24,247 nucleotides of DNA. It comes from a virus. The stretch covers positions 1-24,247 of IMG/VR virus record IMGVR_UViG_3300026483_000040; one strand, written 5' to 3'. Made by a program: the position numbers and the translations under genes. Of this stretch, positions 1,968-13,730 are shown piece by piece (within the stretch, counting starts at the first letter, position 1; each line of letters opens with the position of its first letter). The notes under the pieces were generated by a model that was given only the letters and a program-made list of their open reading frames with translations, had not been told where the DNA came from and did no database searches.

Positions 1968-2432
1968 TTATTTATCTTCGTCATATATTTCAACTGTGTG
2001 AATATCTTTAAAATTATATGCAGCCTTTGGTGTTGGTTGTTCTACTTCATGAATCTTACTAGATTCCTTTTTAGTCTTCATACTCTTAAGTCTTTCAACT
2101 TCCTTTTTCTTGATCTTAGGTAAGATCTTCTTAGCAATCTTCTTGATTGCAGCTTTCTTCTTTTCAACTTTTTTATCAACGACGGCTTTCTGTCCTGCTT
2201 CCAAATCTTGATATTTCTTATCTTTCAATATCTTGTTACGGATGATCTCCTTTGCAGCTTTTTCAGCTCTTTTCAGAATCTTCTCAGGTGAGGCTTTCTT
2301 CTTCATAGCAATAGCCTTCTTGCGTGCAATCTTTGGTGCAAGACGTTTCATGATTCGACCTCTTGCTCTTCTCTGAGAAGGTGTGAGAGGTTTCTCACTT
2401 AAATTGGTTAATGTTTTTTCTATAATATTCAT
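1968..2432 (-). CDS. Lysine-rich, histone-like conserved phage protein
   Basis: A 154-residue, extremely basic protein. The N-terminal part contains SQRRARGRIMKRLAPKIARK followed by AIAMKKKA, and long Lys/Ala helices run to about residue 125. The last 30 residues are acidic and polar, ending VEIYDEDK. The RRARGRIMKRLAPKIAR block recurs in T4-like cyanophage and related genomes (memory), where the family has no settled function. Charge and low complexity suggest DNA condensation or a role as an internal head or core component, but no clear prohead-protease site is seen in it. A purine-rich AGGAG lies 12 bases before the ATG, embedded in the end of the preceding gene. Confidence 0.75.
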   Translation of the reverse strand: MNIIEKTLTNLSEKPLTPSQRRARGRIMKRLAPKIARKKAIAMKKKASPEKILKRAEKAAKEIIRNKILKDKKYQDLEAGQKAVVDKKVEKKKAAIKKIAKKILPKIKKKEVERLKSMKTKKESSKIHEVEQPTPKAAYNFKDIHTVEIYDEDK

Positions 2433-2436
2433 ACTA

Positions 2437-2748
2437 TTATTTATCTCCTGGTAAACCTAACATCCATATAAGAGCACCGCCTAGAGCGGTGATAATTGCT
2501 GATACAAATGTCCAAGCAATGGATTTGATTGTTTTTAATGTTCCTTCAGCATCTGCTTGTTGTTGCTCAACCTGCCTTAATCGCTCTTCTTGAGCAACCA
2601 TTCGCTTTAAGATAATTCTTGTTGTTTCGTCTAGATTCGTAATCTTTTCTTCTGCTCTAGCAAGAGCAATGATAGCATCTGCCATCTTATCGATCTTTTC
2701 TTCGATCCTATCTAAACGAGTTTTTTCAGAAGAGTTCATATTCCCCAT
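2437..2748 (-). CDS. XhlA/holin-like coiled-coil protein with C-terminal membrane anchor
   Basis: A 103-residue protein with two parts. Residues 5-70 form a heptad-like coiled coil (KTRLDRIEEKIDKMADAI and EERLRQVEQQQADAEGTL). Residues 76-99 form a hydrophobic helix with small residues (WTFVSAIITALGGALIWMLG) and a short charged tail GDK. This layout matches XhlA-like haemolysin/holin accessory proteins and other phage membrane-anchored coiled coils, so a role in lysis or the membrane is likely but not proven. The start reads ATG-GGG-AAT-ATG; the second ATG (2737-2739) may be the true start, with GGGGAA as a close ribosome-binding site. The gene lies 17 bases after the late internal-protein module, consistent with late expression. 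Confidence 0.7.
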   Translation of the reverse strand: MGNMNSSEKTRLDRIEEKIDKMADAIIALARAEEKITNLDETTRIILKRMVAQEERLRQVEQQQADAEGTLKTIKSIAWTFVSAIITALGGALIWMLGLPGDK

Positions 2749-2765
2749 TGTAAGGTGTTTAGTTA

Positions 2766-4058
2766 TTATACTTTTTTCTTTCGGGTATATGTTTTGCTCT
2801 TTTTATCAAACCGCCAATCTTTCTTATTGAAGTTTTGGAAATTTTGAACTTCATCATACTCGTCAACTGTTAAAGTGTTTGTCTTTTCAAAATCAACTGA
2901 TTCACCAATTGTGTCTACTTCAGGTTGTTTATTAATGAAACGGGTGATATGTTTTTCATTTGGAACGATAATACTAAGACCAGATTTATCAATATTGAAA
3001 TCATATGAATTGAATTTGTTTCTCAATTTCTTCTGAAGTCTTAATGCAGCCGGTTTTGTTAAAGCCTTAACAACGACGCGGCGACCATCTTCTACACCTA
3101 TATTTTCTTTAATCGATTCAAGTTTAGCCAACTTGGATTTTAGCATCTTGATATACTTATCTTTTCCGCCGTATTGCTTAATCATTTTAGGCGATGGATT
3201 CTTAATCAAATCTTTTATAGATTTAATATCAAGATCTTTATCAGTTGATTCGAGTAACTTAAGTTCTTTCATTCGATCTTTTACAACAGATTTTGGTGCT
3301 TCCATACCGCTTGGAGCTTTAACACCAATAAGAGTTCCAAGGTCTTGTGTTAGATCAGCATTCTTAATTTTACCAGTTTCAATTGCTTTAACAATATTTT
3401 GTGCAACAGTTTTGCGTTGATTCTTCTTTACAGCGTCACTCATGATCACTATTCCATCAACCCAATTTCTTAAGGATTCTTCTCCCTTTTTCATAGAATA
3501 CATACCTTTATGAGTCTTAACTTTGATTGCTTCTTCAAGATCAGTAGATTCTTTAGCCATCACTCTCTGAGCAATTTTAACAAGATTTTCAATCTTGTCG
3601 TTTTCCATCTTCTTCTTGGTTGCAACACTGACCTTATCATAAATCTGACTGATAACAGATGCTGTCTGCATATCAATCATCTTTCCTCCGATCTTAGATG
3701 CTTGCTTATCTGAGACAATTGTTTTAATCTGATCAATCACAGAACCCTTACCTTCTTGAATCTGCGTCGATTCAACATAAGCATTCAATTCATACTTACC
3801 AGAATCCATACCATAGACTTGAAAGGCTAGTCTTTTCCTTGTTTCTTTACCATTCTTAGTAACTTTAACAATATATCTATTGGTCTTACCCTTACCTGGC
3901 TTTTTAGGTCCGGTTGAGACTTGATTGAACCAATCATCTTCATCAACTTCAAATCCTCTTTTCTTGGCAAGGTCTAATGCTGCTTTTGCAGCAGATGTAA
4001 ATGTTTTGTGATATAGAGGGTAATCACCCTCTTTCAAGTATTGTGAAAATGAAATCAT
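2766..4058 (-). CDS. Predicted packaged head protein with capsid-targeting N-terminus and protease sites
   Basis: A 430-residue modular protein. It begins MISFSQYLKE|G, matching the T4 capsid targeting sequence MKTYQEFIAE|A position by position. Segment 24-96 contains RGFEVDEDDWFNQVSTG and RYIVKVTKNGKETRKRLAFQ, an alpha-beta module I recall from other T4-like marine phages. Further matches to (L/I)-x-E|(A/S/G) lie at about 102/103 (IQE|G), 176/177 (ESTDLEE|A), 270/271 (LLE|S) and 386/387 (IGE|S), roughly between predicted modules. The tail is basic and aromatic. No enzyme motif is recognised. The gene starts one base after the polyprotein stop (TAATATG) and ends the late internal-protein cluster. 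Packaging and processing are inferred from motifs; short motifs can arise by chance, but the N-terminal match and the repeated ESxDLEEA linker make chance unlikely. Confidence 0.7.
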   Translation of the reverse strand: MISFSQYLKEGDYPLYHKTFTSAAKAALDLAKKRGFEVDEDDWFNQVSTGPKKPGKGKTNRYIVKVTKNGKETRKRLAFQVYGMDSGKYELNAYVESTQIQEGKGSVIDQIKTIVSDKQASKIGGKMIDMQTASVISQIYDKVSVATKKKMENDKIENLVKIAQRVMAKESTDLEEAIKVKTHKGMYSMKKGEESLRNWVDGIVIMSDAVKKNQRKTVAQNIVKAIETGKIKNADLTQDLGTLIGVKAPSGMEAPKSVVKDRMKELKLLESTDKDLDIKSIKDLIKNPSPKMIKQYGGKDKYIKMLKSKLAKLESIKENIGVEDGRRVVVKALTKPAALRLQKKLRNKFNSYDFNIDKSGLSIIVPNEKHITRFINKQPEVDTIGESVDFEKTNTLTVDEYDEVQNFQNFNKKDWRFDKKSKTYTRKKKV

Positions 4059-4059
4059 A

Positions 4060-6096
4060 TTAAAGTTCTCTTGTAAATTTATTGAATGTTTTAACTATTT
4101 TACTTGGCGCCCATGAAATGTCAACATTAGACTCTGCAATAAATGAATCAATTAACTTTTCATCTGATTCATTTACAGACAATTGAATTACTTTACGAAG
4201 ACGAAGTGTTTCAAGTGAAACAGATTCTTTCATCTCTTCACCCTTAGGTCTATCTTTAATGTTACTTGGGTAACGAATTTTCAAAGGATTGTTGGTTACA
4301 AAGATTAATTCGCCATCAGCATCTAGACCAGCCATAGTATAATTACCAGTCTTCATTTTAAGATTATTGAGAGGACCGAGTTTGATTGCACCAGGTCTCA
4401 CCTTAGAAATAAGAGGCTTGAGATTGTGTTTCTTAATAAGTTTTTCTCTTCTCTTCTGGTTACCTTTTGTTCTAATCCAAGCCTTCTCCAATTCTTTAAA
4501 TGGAAGAGTTGCTTCTTCAAGATCAACTGATTCTCCTAATACAGCATCTACACTTCCGCTTGGAACTGTCATTGGATCAGCCTTCATTTGCTTAAGACCT
4601 TTCTTAATAGCTTGAGCGCTATTGCTAGCTTTCACATCAACTGTTTGACCTTTAAAAAGTTTACCCGTTTTCTTAGTAATTGTAACTGTCCACCATTTAA
4701 CAGCTTCTTCAAGATCAACTGATTCTCCTAGTACAGCATCTACACTTCCGCTTGGTACTGTATTTGGATCAGCCTTCATTTGCTTAAGACCTTTCTTAAT
4801 AGCTTGAGCAGAGTTACTTGCTTTCACATCAACCGTTTGTCCTTTAAAGAGTTTACCAGTTTTCTTAGTAATAGTAACTGTCCACCATTTGACTGCTTCT
4901 TCAAGCTCAGTTGCTTCTTCAAGGTCATTTGATTCGTTATAAGCTGGTTTGATTGCAAGAAGTCCTTGTTTACTTTTTGGAACTTTAAGCTTATTGATTG
5001 CAAATTGTTTTGCGCCCCAAAGGTCTTTTGCATCTTTTTTCGTGATCTCTAATTTCTTTCCTTTAAAGATTGCTATCCAACCATCAGCTTCTTCAAGATC
5101 AGTTGATTCACTAGCGAACATCTTTCTAGCGCCTTTCATAAATGCATCAAATTCTTTTCTCTCTGCAGGGCTTAATTTAATCTTTCCTTTAAGAACATCT
5201 CCTAAGGTTTCTGGGTTTATGCGGCCGAGTTTCTTAGCTAATTTATCGAATGAATCTTCTTCAAGATCAATATCTTCTTTCATTGATCTTTTTTGCATCT
5301 CTCTTTTGATGGCTAAAATAACTGGCTTAGCAGCAGAACGTCCAACGTTTTTGAAGATGTCAAATAAATCTTTTAAATCTGAATCAGAGAGTTTAGCATA
5401 ATCTGCGGCTGCAGCTTCTACTAAATCCGAAATAATGCCATCAATGAAAAGATCATCGAGATCTTCTGATTCATCCATGTTCTTTGTGATCTTATCAACC
5501 ACATCTTTCTTCAGCTTGACTTTAAAGGTCTTTCCGCCGAATTCAAATTCTTTCTTACCATCTTTAGCAGCTTGTGCCAAAGCTCCCATAAAAGCTGGCA
5601 CATCTTCATCGATGATCGCTTTAGGTATAAAATTTTGTCTTTTCATATTAGATTCAGTTTTCCCATTGATTGATTGTTTTGGTGTATCTTTCCTATATTT
5701 ATAAGAAAGCTGTTTTGTACCTTCTTCTCCTGCACCACTTTCTACTGTAAATTTTTGATTAGTTGTTTTAAAATCTTTCTTCCTCATAACAGTCTTTGCT
5801 ACCAAATCTAATTCACCATTCTTATCTAGTTGTAGAACAAATGGCATATTAATATCTGTTTCCATATCATTGATAACGGCCTGCGCCCCTTGACCAAGTG
5901 AGGCTATTTTCTTACCGTATCTACGATATGACTGTTTAAATAGTCTTTGTATCTCTGCCGGTGTGATATCTTTTTTATTACGAGAATCATTCAATCTATC
6001 AAGGAAATGTCGAGTGAATTCAACATCTAGGCCAACCTTACCCCAAAGTTTGTCGGCAAATCTTTCGATTGAATCTAATTGTTTTTTGGTAATCAT
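4060..6096 (-). CDS. Modular polyprotein with LEE|A cleavage linkers and duplicated 64-residue module
   Basis: A 678-residue protein built from modules. Residues 1-118 hold a domain with EFTRHFLDRLNDSRN followed by ITPAEIQRLF and LDLVAKTVMRKKDF, a layout like BECR/RelE-type RNases (His-x3-Arg helix then beta strands); this is a weak inference. Residues 155-205 are an alpha-beta module (IPKAIIDEDVPAFMGAL, KEFEFGGKTFKVKLKK). Residues 337-390 are a W-x-AIFKGKKLEI/KVPKSKQGLLAI module. Residues 401-464 and 465-528 are a near-perfect tandem duplication. T4-type prohead protease matches lie at E227|A, E336|A, E394|A, E400|A, E464|A, E528|A and E655|S, mostly in an ESxDLEEA linker. Its ATG directly abuts the TAA of the kinase gene. 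Unlike its neighbours it lacks a clear N-terminal targeting sequence. Likely cut inside the prohead; the function of the pieces is unknown. Confidence 0.7.
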   Translation of the reverse strand: MITKKQLDSIERFADKLWGKVGLDVEFTRHFLDRLNDSRNKKDITPAEIQRLFKQSYRRYGKKIASLGQGAQAVINDMETDINMPFVLQLDKNGELDLVAKTVMRKKDFKTTNQKFTVESGAGEEGTKQLSYKYRKDTPKQSINGKTESNMKRQNFIPKAIIDEDVPAFMGALAQAAKDGKKEFEFGGKTFKVKLKKDVVDKITKNMDESEDLDDLFIDGIISDLVEAAAADYAKLSDSDLKDLFDIFKNVGRSAAKPVILAIKREMQKRSMKEDIDLEEDSFDKLAKKLGRINPETLGDVLKGKIKLSPAERKEFDAFMKGARKMFASESTDLEEADGWIAIFKGKKLEITKKDAKDLWGAKQFAINKLKVPKSKQGLLAIKPAYNESNDLEEATELEEAVKWWTVTITKKTGKLFKGQTVDVKASNSAQAIKKGLKQMKADPNTVPSGSVDAVLGESVDLEEAVKWWTVTITKKTGKLFKGQTVDVKASNSAQAIKKGLKQMKADPMTVPSGSVDAVLGESVDLEEATLPFKELEKAWIRTKGNQKRREKLIKKHNLKPLISKVRPGAIKLGPLNNLKMKTGNYTMAGLDADGELIFVTNNPLKIRYPSNIKDRPKGEEMKESVSLETLRLRKVIQLSVNESDEKLIDSFIAESNVDISWAPSKIVKTFNKFTREL
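4511..4894 (-). repeat. Tandem duplication, 2 x 192 bp, inside the polyprotein gene
   Basis: Units 4511-4702 and 4703-4894 encode two 64-residue modules that begin AVKWWTVTITKKTGK and end GESVDLEE. The proteins differ at one residue (ADPNTV versus ADPMTV), while the DNA differs at roughly 18 positions. One SNSA stretch uses AGC for serine in one copy and TCT in the other. Nearly all differences are silent, so the duplication is not recent and both copies are held under protein-level selection. The unit boundaries coincide with LEE|A protease motifs. Confidence 0.95.
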
Positions 6097-8166
6097 TTAT
6101 TTTTTGACAGGTTTCTCATGAACCCAACCTTTATCATTTAATCGATTGTGATCATCTTCAGTTTCAGCCCATTCTTTTTCACCAGTCTTTGGATCATACA
6201 TCCAATGTGACTTGAATTCAGATTCTTTCATGCCCTTATGCTTCTTCCATAAATCAGCATCAGCGGTTGTTCGAGTTTTTCCACCAGTAGCAAATGAATT
6301 GATTCTAGCATATCCCCACTGTTCTGGAGTTGTGCCAGGGCGATGTCCTGTTCTCCATGCCGCTACACCCCGATCAAATACCTTCTTGAGAATAGCATAA
6401 GAAATACCAGTCTTTTCTGCTTTCTTTTGAATACCTGTCTTAACATCTTCATATACTTCACCAAGTTGTTGCTTAATCCAATCTCTCGCAATCTTATTTC
6501 TTGGAGTTGCATTAGCAAACTTAATCATCTTCTTATAAGCATCAGTTGTTGCTTTCTGCCAATTGGCACCCTCGGAATTATCCACAATTACAAAGTTATC
6601 TTTGAAGAATGACTGGAATTTACCAATATTCTTCTGAACACCGTCCCACATAATCTTTACTTGTTTCGGACCGAGTGTTCGACTTCTCATTGAATCTCTT
6701 TTAACAGCAGTTTCTAGATCAGTGTTTACAAAAATCATACCTACATCATAACCAATTTCTTTTAGTTTGTTGGCTTGCTTTTTAATCTTCTCATAATCTT
6801 TGCCCGTTCCATCAATCACCAAGCCGAGTCGTCCCTGAATGTAAAGACTCATCTGTTTAGCAGTTAAAGACTTTGCCTTTGCACGAACCTCTTGTCCCTT
6901 TGGAGAGAAGATAAATTCTGGCTCCATCACTCCACCTGCTTTTTCGATTGCTTTTTCAAAGGCAGGATCAGAGTTCACCAATTTAAATCCTAGAGCACCG
7001 AGACCTGTCTTACCCACTGTAAATGATTTACCAGAGCCTGGGCCACCTGCAAGGAATACGGCTTTAAAGATTGCAGGATCATCTACACCCTCTTCTACAT
7101 TATCTTCGGCATCAATGATAGGGTTCTTATCTTCGCCAAACATATCTTTGAATTTCTTAGTATGTTTCGAAGGTTTTGTTTTAGCAGATGCATCACCAGG
7201 AGCTGCCTTATAAGCAGATGGATCATCATCAGATTTTGCGGCACCTTTCTTAAAGTGTGCTGCTCTCTTTGCTTTAGTGGACTTTGCCATCTCATCTCCT
7301 TCAGCATCCTTTGCAAAATACTTTGCGGGTTGAGAACCTTTCCTATCCTTAATATCCTTATCTTGTTTTACTTCGACAATCTTATTAAGGAAATATTTAT
7401 TGTCATCTGAGCCTACGATATAGTTTGTACATCTTTCTGCAACTGAATGAATCTCGCCCCTTAAGTTTAAGAATCGATCACCAACAAGGAATACCTCTTC
7501 AGCAATGTATCTCTCACGAATATTTGATGTCTTTAATTCAATATGCTTACGAAAATTAGTCATCTCCTTCAAACCCATTCTCTTCCTAAGAAGATTGAAT
7601 ACGGCTAATTTATCACCAAAGGATTTTGGAAGACCATTTGAGAATGATTGAAAATCACCTTCAATAGCAGCTGCTCTCATCTTAGAAGCAGACATGCCAG
7701 AAACATCATCTGCATCTGGATCACGATCTCCTGCAGACACAATTGAAATTCCTTCTGGAAAATCATAAAAGCCGTGACGAGCCTTAACACCATTATACTT
7801 GTTCAATAGAGATTTAAAATCTGAAATTCTATCAGCACCAACTACCATTGTGGCTTTTGTGTAACCCGCATTATAAAGATATACTAGTGCATCAATTGCA
7901 TTTTTAATCTTCTTATCATAGATGATGTTGCGACCATGTTTTGGAAAGATCTTTCTCATCAACATAACCTTCTCTTTATACTCAAGAGGATCTTTCTTTG
8001 GGTTATTTGATTGAGACGCAAATATTTTATAGTCATTCCCTATAGCGAGACTAGCTACTTTAATCAGAAGTTTCTCATGCCCGCGGGTCGGAGGGTTGAA
8101 GCGTCCAAATGTGAACACAACTGATTTTGAGTTTTCTTCATTAAACTGTTTAAATCCTTTAATCAT
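6097..8166 (-). CDS. Nucleotidyltransferase - zeta/PNK-like kinase fusion, predicted packaged protein
   Basis: A 689-residue fusion. Residues 14-200 are a cytidylyltransferase/NMNAT-like domain: FTFGRFNPPTRGH (TRGH 27-30 replaces HxGH) and SGMSASKMR (157-164), the ISSTxxR-like motif. Residues 218-268 look like a small beta barrel (VGDRFLNLRGEIHSV). Residues 276-345 are basic low complexity (KSTKAKRAAHFKKGA, KTKPSKHTKKFKDMFGE). Residues 364-530 are a P-loop kinase of zeta-toxin/polynucleotide-kinase type: AGGPGSGKS (373-381), D400, VIDGTG (450-455) and an Arg-rich lid near 490-496. Residues 578-640 (GISYAILKKVFDRGVAAWRT, GTTPEQWGYARINSF) recall a phage family I remember as DUF5824. The N-terminus MIKGFKQFNEE is a degenerate capsid targeting sequence; NVEE|G (356-360) precedes the kinase. 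Substrates are unknown; nucleotide, cofactor or RNA-end chemistry is plausible. Confidence 0.82.
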   Translation of the reverse strand: MIKGFKQFNEENSKSVVFTFGRFNPPTRGHEKLLIKVASLAIGNDYKIFASQSNNPKKDPLEYKEKVMLMRKIFPKHGRNIIYDKKIKNAIDALVYLYNAGYTKATMVVGADRISDFKSLLNKYNGVKARHGFYDFPEGISIVSAGDRDPDADDVSGMSASKMRAAAIEGDFQSFSNGLPKSFGDKLAVFNLLRKRMGLKEMTNFRKHIELKTSNIRERYIAEEVFLVGDRFLNLRGEIHSVAERCTNYIVGSDDNKYFLNKIVEVKQDKDIKDRKGSQPAKYFAKDAEGDEMAKSTKAKRAAHFKKGAAKSDDDPSAYKAAPGDASAKTKPSKHTKKFKDMFGEDKNPIIDAEDNVEEGVDDPAIFKAVFLAGGPGSGKSFTVGKTGLGALGFKLVNSDPAFEKAIEKAGGVMEPEFIFSPKGQEVRAKAKSLTAKQMSLYIQGRLGLVIDGTGKDYEKIKKQANKLKEIGYDVGMIFVNTDLETAVKRDSMRSRTLGPKQVKIMWDGVQKNIGKFQSFFKDNFVIVDNSEGANWQKATTDAYKKMIKFANATPRNKIARDWIKQQLGEVYEDVKTGIQKKAEKTGISYAILKKVFDRGVAAWRTGHRPGTTPEQWGYARINSFATGGKTRTTADADLWKKHKGMKESEFKSHWMYDPKTGEKEWAETEDDHNRLNDKGWVHEKPVKK

Positions 8167-8170
8167 ATCT

Positions 8171-9406
8171 TTATCTTTCCCAGCCTTTTATTACATCTTT
8201 GCTGAAGTTATTCATTGAAAATTCTAATCTATCAACTAATTTGACTGCACCAGAAGTAGTCTTATCAATAGCAACAAATCCTTCAGAACCTGTTACCTTG
8301 AAACCATTCTTAGTACGAACAAAGGTATCAAGTTGTTTTACCTTATCAAGTTTATTTATAATAAGAAGCTTAGCATCTACAATAGCATTCTGAAGCTCAA
8401 ATACAAGTTGAAGGTTCTTTCTATTCTCTTTTGAGAAGAATCTCATCAATTCTTGTTCCTTCTTATCAACACCTTCTTTACCCTTTGGCGATTTTCTCTT
8501 TGCTCTTTCCTTCTCAAATCTATCTTTGAACCAAATGAGAAGATCATTCACATGCTTTGCTGGTGAACCAATTCTTTCACCTTTTCGAACAAGACTATTA
8601 TTAAATGTTTCGAATTGACCAGCAAGTTGTGGATTATCTTGAATCTGTTTGAGTGTCGAACTCGCAATCTTCTGAAAGATTTTACCTGCATTACTCAATG
8701 CATCATTCACTTGTTTTGTATCGGTAGCGGATAAACTTGCCTTACCTGTCACATCTCTATATTCAGCATCTTGATACCAGATTGAAGGTTTCTTCTTTAA
8801 ACCTTTTAGATTAACACCATAGGATGCTTTCATTGAATGAAAATCCTTACCTTTATAAGTTGTGTGCCATACAACTCCAAGATTTGCCTTAGCGATCTGT
8901 TTACCTAAATCTGATTTAACAGGAATAGCATAAACAATTGTGTTTGGCTGGAATGTGTAGTAAGATTCTCCATCAATCGATTCCTTTGCAACATCACCCT
9001 TTGTGAACATGATATCACCTTGAATCACATCTTTAATACCAAGATCTTTCAATTCATTAAAGGCAACTACTAATTTCTCAGCAAGATCACCAGATGTATC
9101 AGCACGAACATCAGCCTCTGATTTATATACCTTAGGATCTTTATTGAAGATGCCTTTCTTGGCAACAAAGAATTGACCATCACTTGGATCGATACCCGCA
9201 AACACTGCTGGTGCTCCATCCCATTTTACAGTAACATCATAATTCTCATTACTATTGCCTGCCAACATATCTCTCATTGCTCTTAAAGCAAAGATGGCTT
9301 CTCTTGCACCTTTAACACCACCATAAATCACTCGGTCTTCCAAGTGTGTCATGTGAGTATTCTTACTCGATGTCGCTTCGGCTATAAATGTCTTAAATGA
9401 TATCAT
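8171..9406 (-). CDS. DUF6267-like protein with KxDG ligase-like motif and capsid-targeting N-terminus
   Basis: A 411-residue protein beginning MISFKTFIAE|A, an almost exact copy of the T4 capsid targeting sequence MKTYQEFIAE|A. The mature part starts with NTHMTHLEDRVIYGG and resembles a family widespread in T4-like cyanophages, which I recall as DUF6267. VTVKWDGAPAVFAG contains K61-x-D-G64, the nucleotidyl-lysine motif of ATP-dependent ligases and capping enzymes. It is followed in the expected order by VIQGDIMF (127-134, like motif III), NTIVYAIPV (IIIa-like) and LGVVWHTTYKG (IV-like). A covalent nucleotidyltransferase or RNA/DNA ligase is therefore possible, but GD instead of GE in motif III is atypical. 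The C-terminal 200 residues are helical and charged. The start overlaps the cupin gene stop by one base (TAATG). Confidence 0.75.
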   Translation of the reverse strand: MISFKTFIAEATSSKNTHMTHLEDRVIYGGVKGAREAIFALRAMRDMLAGNSNENYDVTVKWDGAPAVFAGIDPSDGQFFVAKKGIFNKDPKVYKSEADVRADTSGDLAEKLVVAFNELKDLGIKDVIQGDIMFTKGDVAKESIDGESYYTFQPNTIVYAIPVKSDLGKQIAKANLGVVWHTTYKGKDFHSMKASYGVNLKGLKKKPSIWYQDAEYRDVTGKASLSATDTKQVNDALSNAGKIFQKIASSTLKQIQDNPQLAGQFETFNNSLVRKGERIGSPAKHVNDLLIWFKDRFEKERAKRKSPKGKEGVDKKEQELMRFFSKENRKNLQLVFELQNAIVDAKLLIINKLDKVKQLDTFVRTKNGFKVTGSEGFVAIDKTTSGAVKLVDRLEFSMNNFSKDVIKGWER

Positions 9407-9963
9407 TATGGTGCCAATTTAATTTCAACTTGTTTTGGTTTTACTTTCAAATCTTTCTTTAGAAATTTGGTCAATTGTTTAACGGCGCTTTTATATGTTG
9501 ACATTGCTTTTGAAAAGAATGTATCTTGTTGCATTCCAATCATTCCACCAGAATCTAAAGATGCTTTATAGTCAAATGCCCATGTTCCTTCGCCCTTAGG
9601 TTGTTGTCCTCGATGTGAGAATTGCCAAGGTGTTAAATCAATTGCATAACCTTCTTCGAGTTCTTGTTCCTCACAGAATGTTTTAAACTTTTTCATAGGC
9701 TCTTCTATCTGTATTTTAAGTGGTGTAGTTCCTGCTTTATAGAGACGATGATATTCCATCTTAGACACATTAAGAATATCACCAGCTTCTAACAATTTTG
9801 GTATATCATTATCCATCTGAAACATCCATCCATCACCCTCTAATATTGTAATAACACGATCTACTCGATCACGATGCCAAACTAGTTCATCTGATTCAAT
9901 ATCTGATTCAAATATACGAATCTTTGTATTACCTTTTATTTTATCTGTATATGGTTTACTCAT
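9406..9963 (-). CDS. Cupin domain fused to an internal head-protein-like domain
   Basis: A 185-residue protein counted from the ATG at 9961-9963, which follows the previous stop by one base. An upstream in-frame start at 9987 would overlap the previous gene and is less likely. Residues 14-88 are a cupin-like beta barrel: ELVWHRDRVDRVITILEGDG with His and Glu/Asp, then GDILNVSKMEYHRLY with a second His, plausible metal ligands. Residue 90 then starts MKKFKTFCEEQ, which aligns with the capsid targeting sequence of the neighbour (MISFKTFIAEA), and six residues on is LEE|G, a good prohead-protease site. About 80 residues follow (GYAIDLTPWQFSHRGQQPKG to the end) with no recognised family. The gene looks like a fusion of a cupin with a former packaged protein, or has an internal start at 9694-9696 preceded by purine-rich AGAAGAG. 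The cupin ligand is unknown. Confidence 0.7.
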   Translation of the reverse strand: MSKPYTDKIKGNTKIRIFESDIESDELVWHRDRVDRVITILEGDGWMFQMDNDIPKLLEAGDILNVSKMEYHRLYKAGTTPLKIQIEEPMKKFKTFCEEQELEEGYAIDLTPWQFSHRGQQPKGEGTWAFDYKASLDSGGMIGMQQDTFFSKAMSTYKSAVKQLTKFLKKDLKVKPKQVEIKLAP

Positions 9964-9964
9964 A

Positions 9965-10498
9965 TTACCAAAAAAATGCACCTCCACCTTTTAAGCCAAG
10001 TTGTGATGCATATCTTGGAAGATTGCATGACCAGTAACCTGCTTTTGTTTTATCTTTCTTTGCTGCACAGTTGTGTCGAGCGGCAAAAGATTTTCTTGCT
10101 TCGGGATCATCAATCTTAGCTTTAAGACCTGATGTATCTCCGAATTGAACCTTGATTACATTACCCTTATCATTCTTCACATATACGTAAAATTTCTTCT
10201 TTCCACCTCTTTTAGGTTTATTCAATTCTACATCATCGCCTTTATATTCTGCTTCATTAATGAATGGATGGTCAAGTGGAACTTCTTCACCTTCGTAGAG
10301 ACCAAACTTACCAATGTCTGTTGACATAAGATATTCATCAAATTCATTCAAATATGTTGGGGCCGTAGCAGATTCTTTCATCTGTCTAGCATATTCAAAT
10401 AACTTATAATAGTTTTCTGAATGTGGACGAAAGATATTATGTGCGATGGGTATTTGATTCTCTCTATGGAATCTCAATGCTGCTTCTAGTTGATTCAT
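9965..10498 (-). CDS. Conserved Cys-containing phage protein, predicted processed head protein
   Basis: A 177-residue protein. The N-terminal region has IPIAHNIFRPHSENYYKLFE, a block common at the start of phage accessory proteins, then TDIGKFGLYEGEEVPLDHP. FINE|A at about 79-83 matches the prohead-protease consensus and would release a C-terminal domain of about 95 residues. That domain contains KPKRGGKKKFYVYVKNDKGN, DPEARKSFAARHNCAAKKDK, AGYWSCNLPRY and a terminal GGGAFFW. The RHNC-x11-YWSC pair could bind metal, though only two Cys plus nearby His are visible. I recall this C-terminal block from many T4-like phages (possibly DUF5872; unverified). It overlaps the upstream gene by one base (TAATG), so it is part of the late cluster. 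Molecular function unknown. Confidence 0.75.
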   Translation of the reverse strand: MNQLEAALRFHRENQIPIAHNIFRPHSENYYKLFEYARQMKESATAPTYLNEFDEYLMSTDIGKFGLYEGEEVPLDHPFINEAEYKGDDVELNKPKRGGKKKFYVYVKNDKGNVIKVQFGDTSGLKAKIDDPEARKSFAARHNCAAKKDKTKAGYWSCNLPRYASQLGLKGGGAFFW

Positions 10499-11880
10499 TA
10501 CTTTTCTTTTAATATTATATATGCGCTTGAATCTGATGTTGAACTACCTGCGTAATTCACAATCTGTGTAATAAATTGATCTGCTTTCTTGCCACCATCG
10601 CCAATCAGATTGAGAATATATAGACCACCAAGTTTACCGTGAATCCATATATCAGAATTTCTCTTAATCTTACCAAGCTCTTCAATGACATTTTCTTTTG
10701 AAATAGTCTTGTCAAATTTCTGAAGCATCGCAGTGAATTTATTAATTGCTTTTGAATTGCCAGCTGCTATTGCTTTAGCCTCTTTTCTGAGATCATTATT
10801 TTTAGGCAATCTCTTCTTATAGATTCTCTTTGCTGCATCTTGCATCACACCCCAAGATGCACCACCTCCACGAGCACCTTTACCTTTAATCTCTGCTTTA
10901 TGTGATCCAAATGCACTATTAGCTCTTAGATCAATCTGTCCACCCATAAAGGTTACATAATTTGCTTTAGATGTGTACCATTCACCTCTTGCAATGGCTT
11001 TGATATGACCACCACTAAATTTATAATCAGATGTTAGAGGTGGTCTTTCAATATTCTTCTCAACACCCTTAACACTCTTTGCGACTTTCTTCAATGAGAT
11101 ACCAACCAGTCTCTTTTGAAGATATAAATCGAGTATATCATCATTAAAGCTTTCAACTGTTGATGTATCAAGTTCTTTTACTTTAAAACCTTTTTCTGAT
11201 ACCCAAATATCACCAGGATTCCATTTATCATCTTTTAACGGTTTAAAATCATTGTTCTTAAAGGCTTGATCTTTCGAAGAATATAATTCTTTCATCACTT
11301 TATCATCTCTATGAAAAATCATATCACGTTCAATCAAATGATTTCTGATAGCATATTGAGCCGTAAGATATGAAGAAATCTTCCAACTCTCATCGATATT
11401 AAGAATTTCTTTGATAGATGTTTTTCCAACAGAAACCTGTTTAAATGCTTTGATGAGAACTTCATCAGTAAAGCTTTCCATTGGTTTATCATAACCAATA
11501 TCTAACATAGCAGCCATCCACACACACTGTGCAGATTCTCCGATTGCTGTATTGGCTGTACCACCACCTGCTCCAGCACCACCACCGAATTCTGGTGATT
11601 TCAATATATCTGAAGAAGAAATAGTCTTGCCATTAACACCAGAGAGTTGGAATGCTTTACCATCTCTTTTGAACTGTTCAATTGCATCTAAAGCACCTTG
11701 AACACTGGCAACTGTTATCTCTCCACCTTTATATAATTTTAAAGGGATTTGTTTTTTAATAAGATCACTGAGAATATCGAGTCGTGATTGACCTTTATTA
11801 GGACCACCTGTTGCAGGTTTCTTTAACTCTGCAGGTGTTAAGTTAGTGGCTTCTACTATAAACTCTTTGAAAGATTGCAT
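10498..11880 (-). CDS. Predicted packaged protein with PD-(D/E)XK nuclease-like core and capsid-targeting N-terminus
   Basis: A 460-residue protein from the second ATG (11878-11880): MQSFKEFIVE|A aligns without gaps to T4 MKTYQEFIAE|A, which decides the start. An ATG nine bases upstream (ATGGGAAACATG) is an alternative. Residues 25-100 are a module with SRLDILSDLIKKQIPLKLY, then a Gly-rich linker (FGGGAGAGGG). The central region has GESAQCVWMAAML (E115), WNPGDIWVS (D224) and, after a helix, RLVGISLKK (K264/K265). Glu in a helix, Asp after N-P-G, and S-x-K in a strand is the layout of PD-(D/E)XK restriction-type nucleases. The C-terminal part contains WGVMQDAAKRIYKKRLPKN and a beta-rich end. 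It is the first gene after tandem late promoters. Nuclease activity is inferred from motif order only. Confidence 0.72.
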   Translation of the reverse strand: MQSFKEFIVEATNLTPAELKKPATGGPNKGQSRLDILSDLIKKQIPLKLYKGGEITVASVQGALDAIEQFKRDGKAFQLSGVNGKTISSSDILKSPEFGGGAGAGGGTANTAIGESAQCVWMAAMLDIGYDKPMESFTDEVLIKAFKQVSVGKTSIKEILNIDESWKISSYLTAQYAIRNHLIERDMIFHRDDKVMKELYSSKDQAFKNNDFKPLKDDKWNPGDIWVSEKGFKVKELDTSTVESFNDDILDLYLQKRLVGISLKKVAKSVKGVEKNIERPPLTSDYKFSGGHIKAIARGEWYTSKANYVTFMGGQIDLRANSAFGSHKAEIKGKGARGGGASWGVMQDAAKRIYKKRLPKNNDLRKEAKAIAAGNSKAINKFTAMLQKFDKTISKENVIEELGKIKRNSDIWIHGKLGGLYILNLIGDGGKKADQFITQIVNYAGSSTSDSSAYIILKEK

Positions 11881-11905
11881 GTTTCCCATAAATTAATGAT
11901 AGTGA

Positions 11906-11923
11906 TATTTATATCTATTTATA
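11906..11923 (-). promoter_or_regulatory. Tandem T4-type late promoters (two TATAAATA)
   Basis: Two exact copies of the T4 late promoter element TATAAATA lie on the minus strand at 11916-11923 and 11906-11913, two bases apart, 26 bases or more upstream of the first capsid-targeted gene. T4 late promoters consist of this -10-like element alone and are read by host RNA polymerase with gp55, gp33 and the clamp. The upstream copy overlaps the last codons and stop of the metallopeptidase gene. Position and exact match make this a convincing late transcription start for the packaged-protein module. Confidence 0.8.
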
Positions 11924-12355
11924 AGATTTCCACTCTTCATATAGCACATTTGATCTCTCATATGTCTCTTTTTCCCATGGCTCATCACTTTTTAACTTAG
12001 TCCAATCAACTAATTCTCCCATCCATTTACACATCTTAGGTGATCGAATGAGATCAACTAACTCACCCCTAACATATTGTTTAACGTGTATCATTTCATG
12101 TGCGAGTGTATCATGAATATCATCTAAGGTTAAGGAAGAATCAATTCTAATTGTGAAATCTCTTGGGTTATGATTATTATCATTCCAAGAACAGTCACCG
12201 TAAAGACCTTCTTTATCGGCTAGATTCCTTATAAGTTCTATATCAACTTCAAGGTTCTTTAATCTAGGCATAAGTCTTTTAACATAAAAAAAGAAAGCAC
12301 TTTCAAGTTCAGATCTAATCTTCTGATTTGAACCCCTTATTGATAATGTAATCAT
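11915..12355 (-). CDS. Zinc metallopeptidase-like protein (HExxH)
   Basis: A 146-residue protein from the ATG at 12353-12355, one base after the helicase stop (TGATATG). A longer frame reading upstream into the helicase gene is rejected because of that junction. LDDIHDTLAHEMIHVKQYVR holds the zincin motif H86-E-M-I-H90. DEPWEKETYER (about 124-134) offers a third metal ligand in the usual downstream position, as in small SprT-like or related phage metallopeptidases. The N-terminal 60 residues form a helical/beta region containing Cys55. No signal peptide or membrane segment, so it acts in the cytoplasm, perhaps processing phage or host proteins during infection. Substrate unknown. It ends the replication-gene run; its last codons overlap the late promoters. 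Confidence 0.82.
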   Translation of the reverse strand: MITLSIRGSNQKIRSELESAFFFYVKRLMPRLKNLEVDIELIRNLADKEGLYGDCSWNDNNHNPRDFTIRIDSSLTLDDIHDTLAHEMIHVKQYVRGELVDLIRSPKMCKWMGELVDWTKLKSDEPWEKETYERSNVLYEEWKSYK

Positions 12356-12356
12356 A

Positions 12357-13730
12357 TCAAATCTTAAAGGTTGAGAAATCAGAATTGGATTGCGTTTGTG
12401 GAGTAGAATCTGATGAACCATCATTAGATAGATTCTGTGCAGAAGTTTCAACATCATACAATCTCATCTTGGCACGATCAATCCCAACGACGAATCTCTT
12501 GTTGGCTGTTGGATCATTATATCGATTCTTGAGTTGTTTAACCATGAGCTGATTCATACCCTCAAGCTGTTCAGTTGAAATAAGAGCGAGCATCAAGTCA
12601 CAAGTTGCAGGAAGACCGAATGATTCTGAAGTATCAGTAATCTCAACGTCAGAATTACCAAATCCAGTTCTTGTTACCTGAGTTGCAGACCAGATTGGTA
12701 CATTGAACTCAACAGCAAGTCCTCGAAGTTCCTCCGCGATTGCTTTAACAAAAGAATATGTATTGATAGATCCACCAAGACCTTTCATTCGTGAAGAAGC
12801 CGCAATATTAAGATAATCAATGAATATAACATCAGGTTTGAAGTCTTTCTTCAATCTAAGTTCATCAAGCAAGGCTCGGAAATGACCAGAGTGAGCAACA
12901 GCTGTTGGATATTCCTTTACAATCAGTTTACCATTAGTCTTTGATTGAATCTTCTTTACCTTAGAATCAAATAGGTCTTTGGGTAGATTCTCAATATCAC
13001 CGATATCAATATCAAATAGATTTGCATCAATACGTTCAGCTATCTTTTCTTCAGCCATTTCAAGTGTGATGTATAGAACACTCTTACCTTCAGATAATGC
13101 AGCGGCTGCAAAATGACACATGGCAAGAGATTTACCAACACCTGTGCCAGCAAGGATAATATTCAATGTCTTTCGACCTACACCACCCTTTGTGATTGTG
13201 TTGAGCATCTCAATGTCAAACGGCATCTTGTCTTCTTTCTTATGATAGAAAGCAAAACGTTCAGATGCATTTTCAATATAGTCGTGTCCTACATTAGAAT
13301 CAAAGGAAACTCCTAGTGCATCTGATAAAATTTCGGGGATTGCACCTTCAGCCTTATCTTTCTTTTTACCATCAATGATCTGAATTGATTCCATGATAGC
13401 AAGGTACACGGCTCGATCTTTACACCACTTTTCTGTAGAATCAATTAGCCACTGATCATCGACCTTTTCCTCTTTCTCTAATTCACGAATGAGGGTTAGG
13501 ACCTCATTCGCGTCACTCCGTGTGATATGTTCCGAATTCTGAAACTCAATTTCAAGAGCAGCAGAATTAGGTAGTTTATTATATTCACTTACAAACGATA
13601 ATATTAATTTATATACAGGTGCATTATGAGCTTCAAAGTATTCAGTCTTTAAGTGAGGTAATGATTTTCTTGTGAAGTCTTCATTGTATATTAAGTTATT
13701 AAGTATTATCGCTTGTAAATCTTTAATCAT
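12357..13730 (-). CDS. 41: Replicative DNA helicase, T4 gp41 / DnaB type
   Basis: A 457-residue hexameric-type 5'-3' helicase that unwinds DNA ahead of the fork and works with primase. The N-terminal region (1-150) is helical, as in gp41/DnaB. The RecA-like core has Walker A GTGVGKS (195-201), a catalytic segment VLYITLEMAEEKIAERIDAN, Walker B PDVIFIDYLNIA (about 299-310), and GLAVEFNVPIWSATQVTR, the DnaB motif with the polar Gln. The C-terminus has LKNRYNDPTANKRFVVGIDR, then a short low-complexity tail. Length is close to T4 gp41 (475). The start ATG overlaps the stop of the upstream small gene by eight bases, implying coupling. The order UvsX - small gene - gp41 is as in marine T4-like phages. 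Confidence 0.95.
   Translation of the reverse strand: MIKDLQAIILNNLIYNEDFTRKSLPHLKTEYFEAHNAPVYKLILSFVSEYNKLPNSAALEIEFQNSEHITRSDANEVLTLIRELEKEEKVDDQWLIDSTEKWCKDRAVYLAIMESIQIIDGKKKDKAEGAIPEILSDALGVSFDSNVGHDYIENASERFAFYHKKEDKMPFDIEMLNTITKGGVGRKTLNIILAGTGVGKSLAMCHFAAAALSEGKSVLYITLEMAEEKIAERIDANLFDIDIGDIENLPKDLFDSKVKKIQSKTNGKLIVKEYPTAVAHSGHFRALLDELRLKKDFKPDVIFIDYLNIAASSRMKGLGGSINTYSFVKAIAEELRGLAVEFNVPIWSATQVTRTGFGNSDVEITDTSESFGLPATCDLMLALISTEQLEGMNQLMVKQLKNRYNDPTANKRFVVGIDRAKMRLYDVETSAQNLSNDGSSDSTPQTQSNSDFSTFKI

Follow-up and report, generated by a model that had tools for sequence, protein, structure and literature searches.

Gene content of the window and organization of the array proteins

The window analyzed here comprises all 24,247 bases of an IMG/VR record. 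It is a genome fragment that, as read from its open reading frames (ORFs), presumably encodes a DNA polymerase of the family B type, a UvsX-like recombinase and a gp41-like helicase. Judged by sequence, it has the gene content of a T4-superfamily marine phage. Neither gp21 nor gp23 was recognized among the ORFs of this 24-kb record. On the minus strand, positions 1968-11889 hold a gene cluster, several members of which begin with a T4-type capsid targeting sequence. Two adjacent members of the cluster are modular proteins of 678 and 430 residues, here termed arrays, whose parts are listed together with the neighbouring genes in Table 1.

Table 1. Array proteins, their linkers and modules, and neighbouring genes of the cluster (a slash separates P1 from P1')
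Feature	Position	Strand	Remark
Lys-rich protein	1968..2432	minus	by eye, resembles a module that follows LGE/A inside phiN3 gp356
Adjacent second array (430 aa) with five sites	2766..4058	minus	modules recur elsewhere
Linker ESTDLEE/A (residues 170-177) of second array	3528..3551	minus	
N-terminal T4-type leader MISFSQYLKE/G of second array	4029..4058	minus	
678-aa modular array protein	4060..6096	minus	ORF; site excess; modules also found elsewhere in other orders
Module M02 (PFKELEKAW...) plus helical C-terminal part containing IAE/S (P1 E655)	4063..4512	minus	
Linker ESVDLEE/A (P1 E528)	4510..4533	minus	pLDDT <50 at residues 522-530
Module M01 copy 2 (residues 465-528)	4513..4704	minus	
Linker ESVDLEE/A (P1 E464)	4702..4725	minus	pLDDT <50 at residues 457-464
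Module M01 copy 1 (residues 401-464), β-β-α-β	4705..4896	minus	pLDDT about 80-88
Linker EATELEE/A (P1 E400)	4894..4917	minus	
Linker ESNDLEE/A (P1 E394)	4912..4935	minus	
Linker ESTDLEE/A (P1 E336)	5086..5109	minus	
LVE/A site (P1 E227), start of ADYxKLS module	5413..5424	minus	
N-terminal domain (residues 1-120)	5737..6096	minus	
NMNAT-like / P-loop kinase / DUF5824 protein, leader MIKGFKQFNEEN	6097..8166	minus	
DUF6267 protein, leader MISFKTFIAE/A	8171..9406	minus	PF19782, 4e-106
Protein with INE/A directly before EYKGDDVELNKPKRGG module	9965..10498	minus	
phrog_1462 protein, leader MQSFKEFIVE/A	10498..11889	minus	distantly homologous to the virion protein ORF90 of S-SCSM1

From the N- to the C-terminus, the 678-aa protein consists of an N-terminal domain (N-domain), four modules with the signatures KxxFIPKxxxDEDVPAFMGALAQAAKDG, ADYxKLS, FDKLxKKLGRINP and DGWIAIF, two copies of M01, and M02. 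It begins with MITKKQLDSIERF, and no capsid-targeting leader was found at this N-terminus. The N-domain occurs in many T4-like phages, either by itself, behind a leader, or as part of a fusion with other proteins of the virion cluster. At positions 6094-6099 the NMNAT-like ORF ends with TAA and the ATG of the array follows immediately in the same frame, so that a single stop codon separates reading frames of 689 and 678 residues; in L048 the NMNAT and the N-domain form one ORF.

Sequence analysis revealed nine matches to [LI]xE[ASG] in the 678-aa ORF, with P1 at E227, E336, E394, E400, E458, E464, E522, E528 and E655, compared to a mean of 1.5 in composition shuffles, only 0.02% of 5000 of which reached nine or more. 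The first-pass annotation had counted seven; the repeated sites that it reported are borne out, and its five LEE/A sites lie exactly at E336, E394, E400, E464 and E528. The ESxDLEEA linker that it assigned to the 430-aa neighbour is also present, as ESTDLEEA at residues 170-177, and four further matches bring that ORF to five against 0.7 expected. Two LEEA sites of the 678-aa protein bound a 64-residue tandem duplication, and these two are thus partly interdependent; taken by itself, the number of sites is therefore modest evidence, and the comparison with relatives carries the case. A chance motif or composition effect was considered as the source of the sites and rejected. A gene-calling artefact was rejected as well, the frame being uninterrupted and identical in the loci L005 and L006.

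Among the neighbouring genes, the homologue of ORF 9965-10498 in the complete phage C48C1 has LTE/A in place of INE/A, behind the leader YIDE/G. In the distant T4-superfamily phage phiN3, gp356 (L003:4543-6351) joins parts that are NMNAT-like, Lys-rich, DUF5824-like and related to the N-domain into a single chain, in which LGE/A precedes the Lys-rich part; it represents a second, independent fusion of virion-cluster proteins.

Module shuffling in related arrays

Three scans of IMG/VR yielded relatives at about 130 uncultivated viral loci, from which we collected 49 non-redundant array proteins of 247-1007 residues with repeated seams. The arrays were split at the seam peptide and the pieces clustered by reciprocal coverage; single-linkage clustering, in which modules merged through uncut segments, was dropped. 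This gave about 48 recurring module families, mostly of 35-110 residues, the order and number of which vary from array to array. At least two different upstream neighbours were identified for 27 of these families, and as many as 12 for M01 (VKWWTVTITKK). Beyond the N-domain, the arrays had zero matches in 50,697 phage records, and M01 was absent from the genome_contigs collection of bacterial and archaeal genomes. The arrays of L045, L069, L095, L126, L042 and L143 carry a second type of N-terminal leader, M-x-(I/L)-x-D-x-x-T-x-x-(V/L)-A-x-A-V-x-x-(V/I), which is unlike the T4 capsid targeting sequence and is a candidate alternative head-targeting signal.

In the related arrays too, the seams between modules carry the E-S-x-D-L-E-E/A peptide. 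To avoid circularity, breakpoints were defined without the motif, as the ends of local alignments between arrays at an identity of at least 75%. A strict [LI]xE[AGS] site was found within 10 residues downstream of 53% of the left ends, compared to 13% at random, and at 50% of the right ends, compared to 9%; this excess of four to six times chance was unmatched in 1000 randomisations. An earlier version of the test with loose BLAST settings had given a weak excess only and was redone with stricter ones. Modules start at the motif in 74% of cases versus 7.5%, a count that is partly circular because the modules had been defined by splitting at the motif, and for this reason we relied on the motif-independent test instead.

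The residue profile upstream of profile-found modules, which shares part of this circularity, has Glu at P1 in 271 of 375 cases, Leu or Ile at P3 in 217 (with some Val) and Ala, Gly or Ser at P1' in 264. Within modules, no depletion of [LI]xE[AGS] was seen, with 46 occurrences against 38 expected, but many of the 46 are genuine seams or leaders that the mask had failed to cover; with module profiles as the mask, the count is 62 against 24 expected and includes seam residues. Some seams are off consensus, such as ESVEE/A in G034, with Val at P3, and the variants LEE/D and LEE/M.

Equivalence of seams and processed leaders

Several modules are found behind an N-terminal leader in one protein and behind an internal linker in another. 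The YPLYHKTFTSA module follows MISFSQYLKE/G in the window and TIGEATDLEE/A inside the array of L014. M01, which follows ESxDLEE/A in arrays, forms a 68-aa single-module gene behind MKTFKEIRNE/G in L138 and lies behind MMTFSQMRE/A, inside a longer reading frame, in L144. Similarly, DUF6267 follows MISFKTFIAE/A in the window but is internal in L016, behind FKSRLDE/A after the N-domain. The ADYxKLS module lies behind the N-terminal leader MNIKEQEIIEKYLSE/A in L042, with similar leaders in L020 and L043, and module M10 lies behind MFTFLQYLKE/A in L020. The N-domain itself bears leaders in L021, L036 and L037, those of L036 and L037 qualifying as capsid targeting sequences.

In T4, gp21 cuts after L/I-X-E, and the leaders of the internal proteins (IPs) are cut there; for the IPIII leader, targeting depends most on residues 4 and 7, and processing on residues 8 and 10 (PMC9026906). 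The array linkers correspond to the processing half of such a leader, and the aromatic targeting half is absent. A single gene of 68 aa, starting MRSFKEIRE/AKTK..., lies in the portal-gp21 slot of the capsid operon of G034 (L151:1226-1432); it is an internal protein made of a leader and one module.

Structure and selection of the modules

The AlphaFold2 model of residues 391-678 predicts that each M01 adopts a compact β-β-α-β fold with a pLDDT of about 80-88, whereas residues 457-464 and 522-530, corresponding to two of the LEEA linkers, are predicted to be disordered, with a pLDDT below 50. At 0.33, the overall pTM of this model is low, which is to be expected when domains are joined loosely. 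The tandem copies of M01 differ at 17 nucleotides, 13 of them at third codon positions, and in a single amino acid. Over 24 distinct copies, the median dN/dS of M01 is 0.13, showing that the module is under strong purifying selection. About three quarters of the module families have a pI above 8, the median module pI being 9.6.

Searches of Pfam and PHROGs and a fold search against the PDB returned nothing significant for the function of the modules. The best resemblance of M01 is to the eukaryotic ribosomal protein eL20, at an E-value of only about 0.03, and the model of the N-domain had zero matches in the fold search. The 678-aa protein as a whole matched no Pfam family and only PHROGs of unknown function, and no peptidase or effector domain was recognized in it.

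Head-gene context and virion-associated relatives

Both gp21 (PF03420) and gp23 (PF07068) are encoded in four array-bearing contigs (G022, G025, G028 and G034). In G025, the genes run in the order portal gp20 (PF07230), array, a paralogous small gene, gp21 (PF03420), the gp22 scaffold (PF25623) and gp23. In its first 48 residues, this array is related to the small gene found in the portal-protease slot of G025 and other phages; judged by position, this slot would be the place where T4 has gp67/gp68. G025 gp21 carries YITE/A near its N-terminus, and G025 gp23 carries VLSE/A at the likely end of its propeptide. By position, L129 has an arrangement like that of G025, with other modules. An array occupies the slot between gp20 and gp21 in G025 and L129, but not in the window.

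Relatives of the genes next to the arrays have been detected in virions. NMNAT-like proteins are present in the virion proteomes of the cultured T4-like cyanophages S-SCSM1 and S-CREM2 (PMC9602691, PMC10665884). In the matching cluster of S-SCSM1, ORF89 to ORF93, ORF95 and ORF97 are annotated in the phage record as virion proteins. The S-SCSM1 NMNAT (ORF91) shares 40% identity with that of the window over 250 aa and begins with MKSFLQFLKE/A, and its S-CREM2 counterpart begins with MKNFSSFLTE/A.

Proposed processing of the arrays and alternative explanations

The first-pass annotation had read the 678-aa protein as a polyprotein cut by the prohead protease, in contrast to the single-cut internal proteins of T4. 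The polyprotein reading is partly supported, by the shuffled modules with seams at the site, the equivalence of these seams to processed leaders, the disordered linkers between folded modules, a gp21 of the right family beside the array of a relative, and the virion-associated relatives of a neighbouring gene. The contrast holds for the IP cargo proteins only, as T4 gp22, gp67, gp68 and Alt set a precedent for cutting at several sites. T4 Alt is cut twice. On balance, we consider it probable that the 678-aa and 430-aa proteins are concatenated internal-head proteins, which gp21 would cut into small cargo domains.

We propose that each array consists of small folded modules, most of them basic, strung together, and that the joining peptide (ExxDLEE/A and variants) corresponds to the half of a T4 capsid targeting sequence that directs processing, with Leu/Ile at P3, Glu at P1 and Ala/Gly/Ser at P1'. 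The chain would be built into the prohead core, entering via the leader in the second array, via a core-type N-terminus in G025, or by another route in the 678-aa protein. For this last protein, which has no leader and lies in a window where gp21 and gp23 were not recognized, entry into the head is inferred. At head maturation, a gp21-type phage protease would cut the linkers, and several small domains would be left beside the DNA; their probable fate is ejection into the host, as for T4 IPI or Alt. With a shared linker, modules could be duplicated, lost or swapped without upsetting folding or release, and the arrays could thus evolve as cassettes. More tentatively, the arrays may form a combinatorial cargo system, in which small effectors that can replace one another, possibly IPI-like anti-defence proteins, are carried in one chain, separated by the head protease and co-injected, with the linker acting as the recombination seam.

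The main alternative is that the arrays are core proteins made to be destroyed: gp21 would cut them at many sites, the pieces would exit before DNA packaging, and the modules would serve assembly. Consistent with this, the small core-protein gene that lies between portal and gp21 is lengthened by an array in G025 and L129, and T4 gp22, gp67 and gp68 are cut several times, with most fragments leaving the head (PMC9026906, PMC5694885). However, the modules are diverse, folded units on which strong purifying selection acts, and they also occur singly behind capsid-targeting-like leaders, which is the architecture of retained internal proteins. Moreover, the majority of arrays belong to the NMNAT/DUF6267 cluster, relatives of which have been detected in mature virions. 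A destroyed core protein is thus a rather unlikely explanation.

Codon usage bears on a second alternative, in which the array stays uncut like beads on a string, the linker being a flexible hinge and a short DNA homology for exchange, and its match to the gp21 site a by-product of descent from leaders. In the 60 strict linkers, the Leu codon is CTT in 57 (95%), compared to 39% in the array background and 48% in control LxE. The core CTT-GAA-GAA-GC is nearly frozen as DNA in the strict linkers of positions 2766-6096 and of related arrays, whereas conserved codons inside M01 have no such conservation at the DNA level. Part of the linker conservation therefore lies at the DNA level, which suggests short recombination homology or recent spread; the predicted disorder of the linkers would also suit a hinge. 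Yet many seams vary in codon or residue (IEE, LQE, LKE, LDE, VEE) and still keep the hydrophobic P3, the P1 Glu and the P1' Ala/Gly/Ser, so that selection at the protein level is likely as well, although the two levels are not fully separable. In addition, the seams match the leader cleavage positions of single-module proteins, and exposed LEE/A linkers should be cut in a T4-like head with gp21. These points make an uncut chain distinctly improbable.

A cytoplasmic multidomain protein that is never packaged, with sites of no relevance, would fit the leaderless 678-aa ORF and the virion proteomes so far devoid of arrays (array-bearing phages being known from sequence alone), but is very improbable in view of the T4-type leaders on the adjacent array and neighbouring genes, the leaders borne by the N-domain in L021, L036 and L037, and the G025 array in the prohead core slot.

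Comparison with known systems

The machinery behind the proposed polyprotein, namely gp21, the capsid targeting sequence and internal proteins, is already known. Like the arrays, T4 IPI, IPII, IPIII and Alt have small, basic, compact domains behind an L/I-x-E/A peptide, in their case processed by gp21. The T4 internal proteins are diverse and host-specific, a diversity common to the array modules, and mature IPI* has 76 residues (PMC3012670), close to the size of an array module. However, each T4 IP is encoded by a gene of its own and has one propeptide and a single N-terminal cut, whereas the arrays have many modules per chain and several internal seams, each at a module boundary; their linkers also lack the aromatic targeting residues of the T4 IP leader. 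The 678-aa protein has the gp21 consensus (L/I-X-E followed by A/G/S) without the N-terminal targeting sequence, which is present in the 430-aa array.

T4 gp22, gp67 and gp68 resemble the arrays in having several gp21 sites per chain, and the arrays of G025 and L129 lie in the portal-gp21 slot, but these T4 core proteins are cut into fragments, most of which are expelled, whereas the arrays consist of conserved, shuffled folded modules. In the head proteins of SPN3US and phiKZ, a short x-x-E motif likewise provides repeated prohead-protease sites per protein (PMC10052503, PMC5694885); there the several cuts trim a long propeptide that is discarded, in contrast to sites lying between conserved modules along the whole chain.

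The nearest published idea is that of polyvalent proteins (Iyer et al. 2017, PMC5512222), which share with the arrays a multidomain organization and domain shuffling, are thought to enter the host with the DNA, and were likened to polyproteins by the authors (PMC5512222). They differ in having large recognizable enzyme domains and sometimes an embedded peptidase, neither of which was found in the 678-aa array. Our literature search found no description of internal-protein-like modules concatenated into shuffled polyproteins.

If the proposed processing is correct, the arrays would represent a phage cargo polyprotein of exchangeable cassettes cut by the capsid protease. Such a polyprotein solution is otherwise known from eukaryotic viruses. 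Dozens of uncharacterized small modules would then share a predicted fate, first the head and then the host, and could be tested as first-strike anti-defence proteins, while the linker would offer a ready-made tag to release several cargo domains per chain in T4-type particles.

Additional features of the window and a related contig

Positions 9406-9987 encode a cupin-like part followed by an internal leader-like MKKFKTFCEEQELEE/G, possibly an internally cut fusion or a misplaced start codon. At 11915-12457, a small protein with a HEMIH (HExxH-like) motif, a possible metallopeptidase, overlaps the helicase ORF by about 100 bases. In the array-bearing contig G034, positions 59189-69718 (L174) encode a 3509-aa protein with Tyr-rich short repeats (YxGxYxSxY), which is probably a tail or fibre protein.
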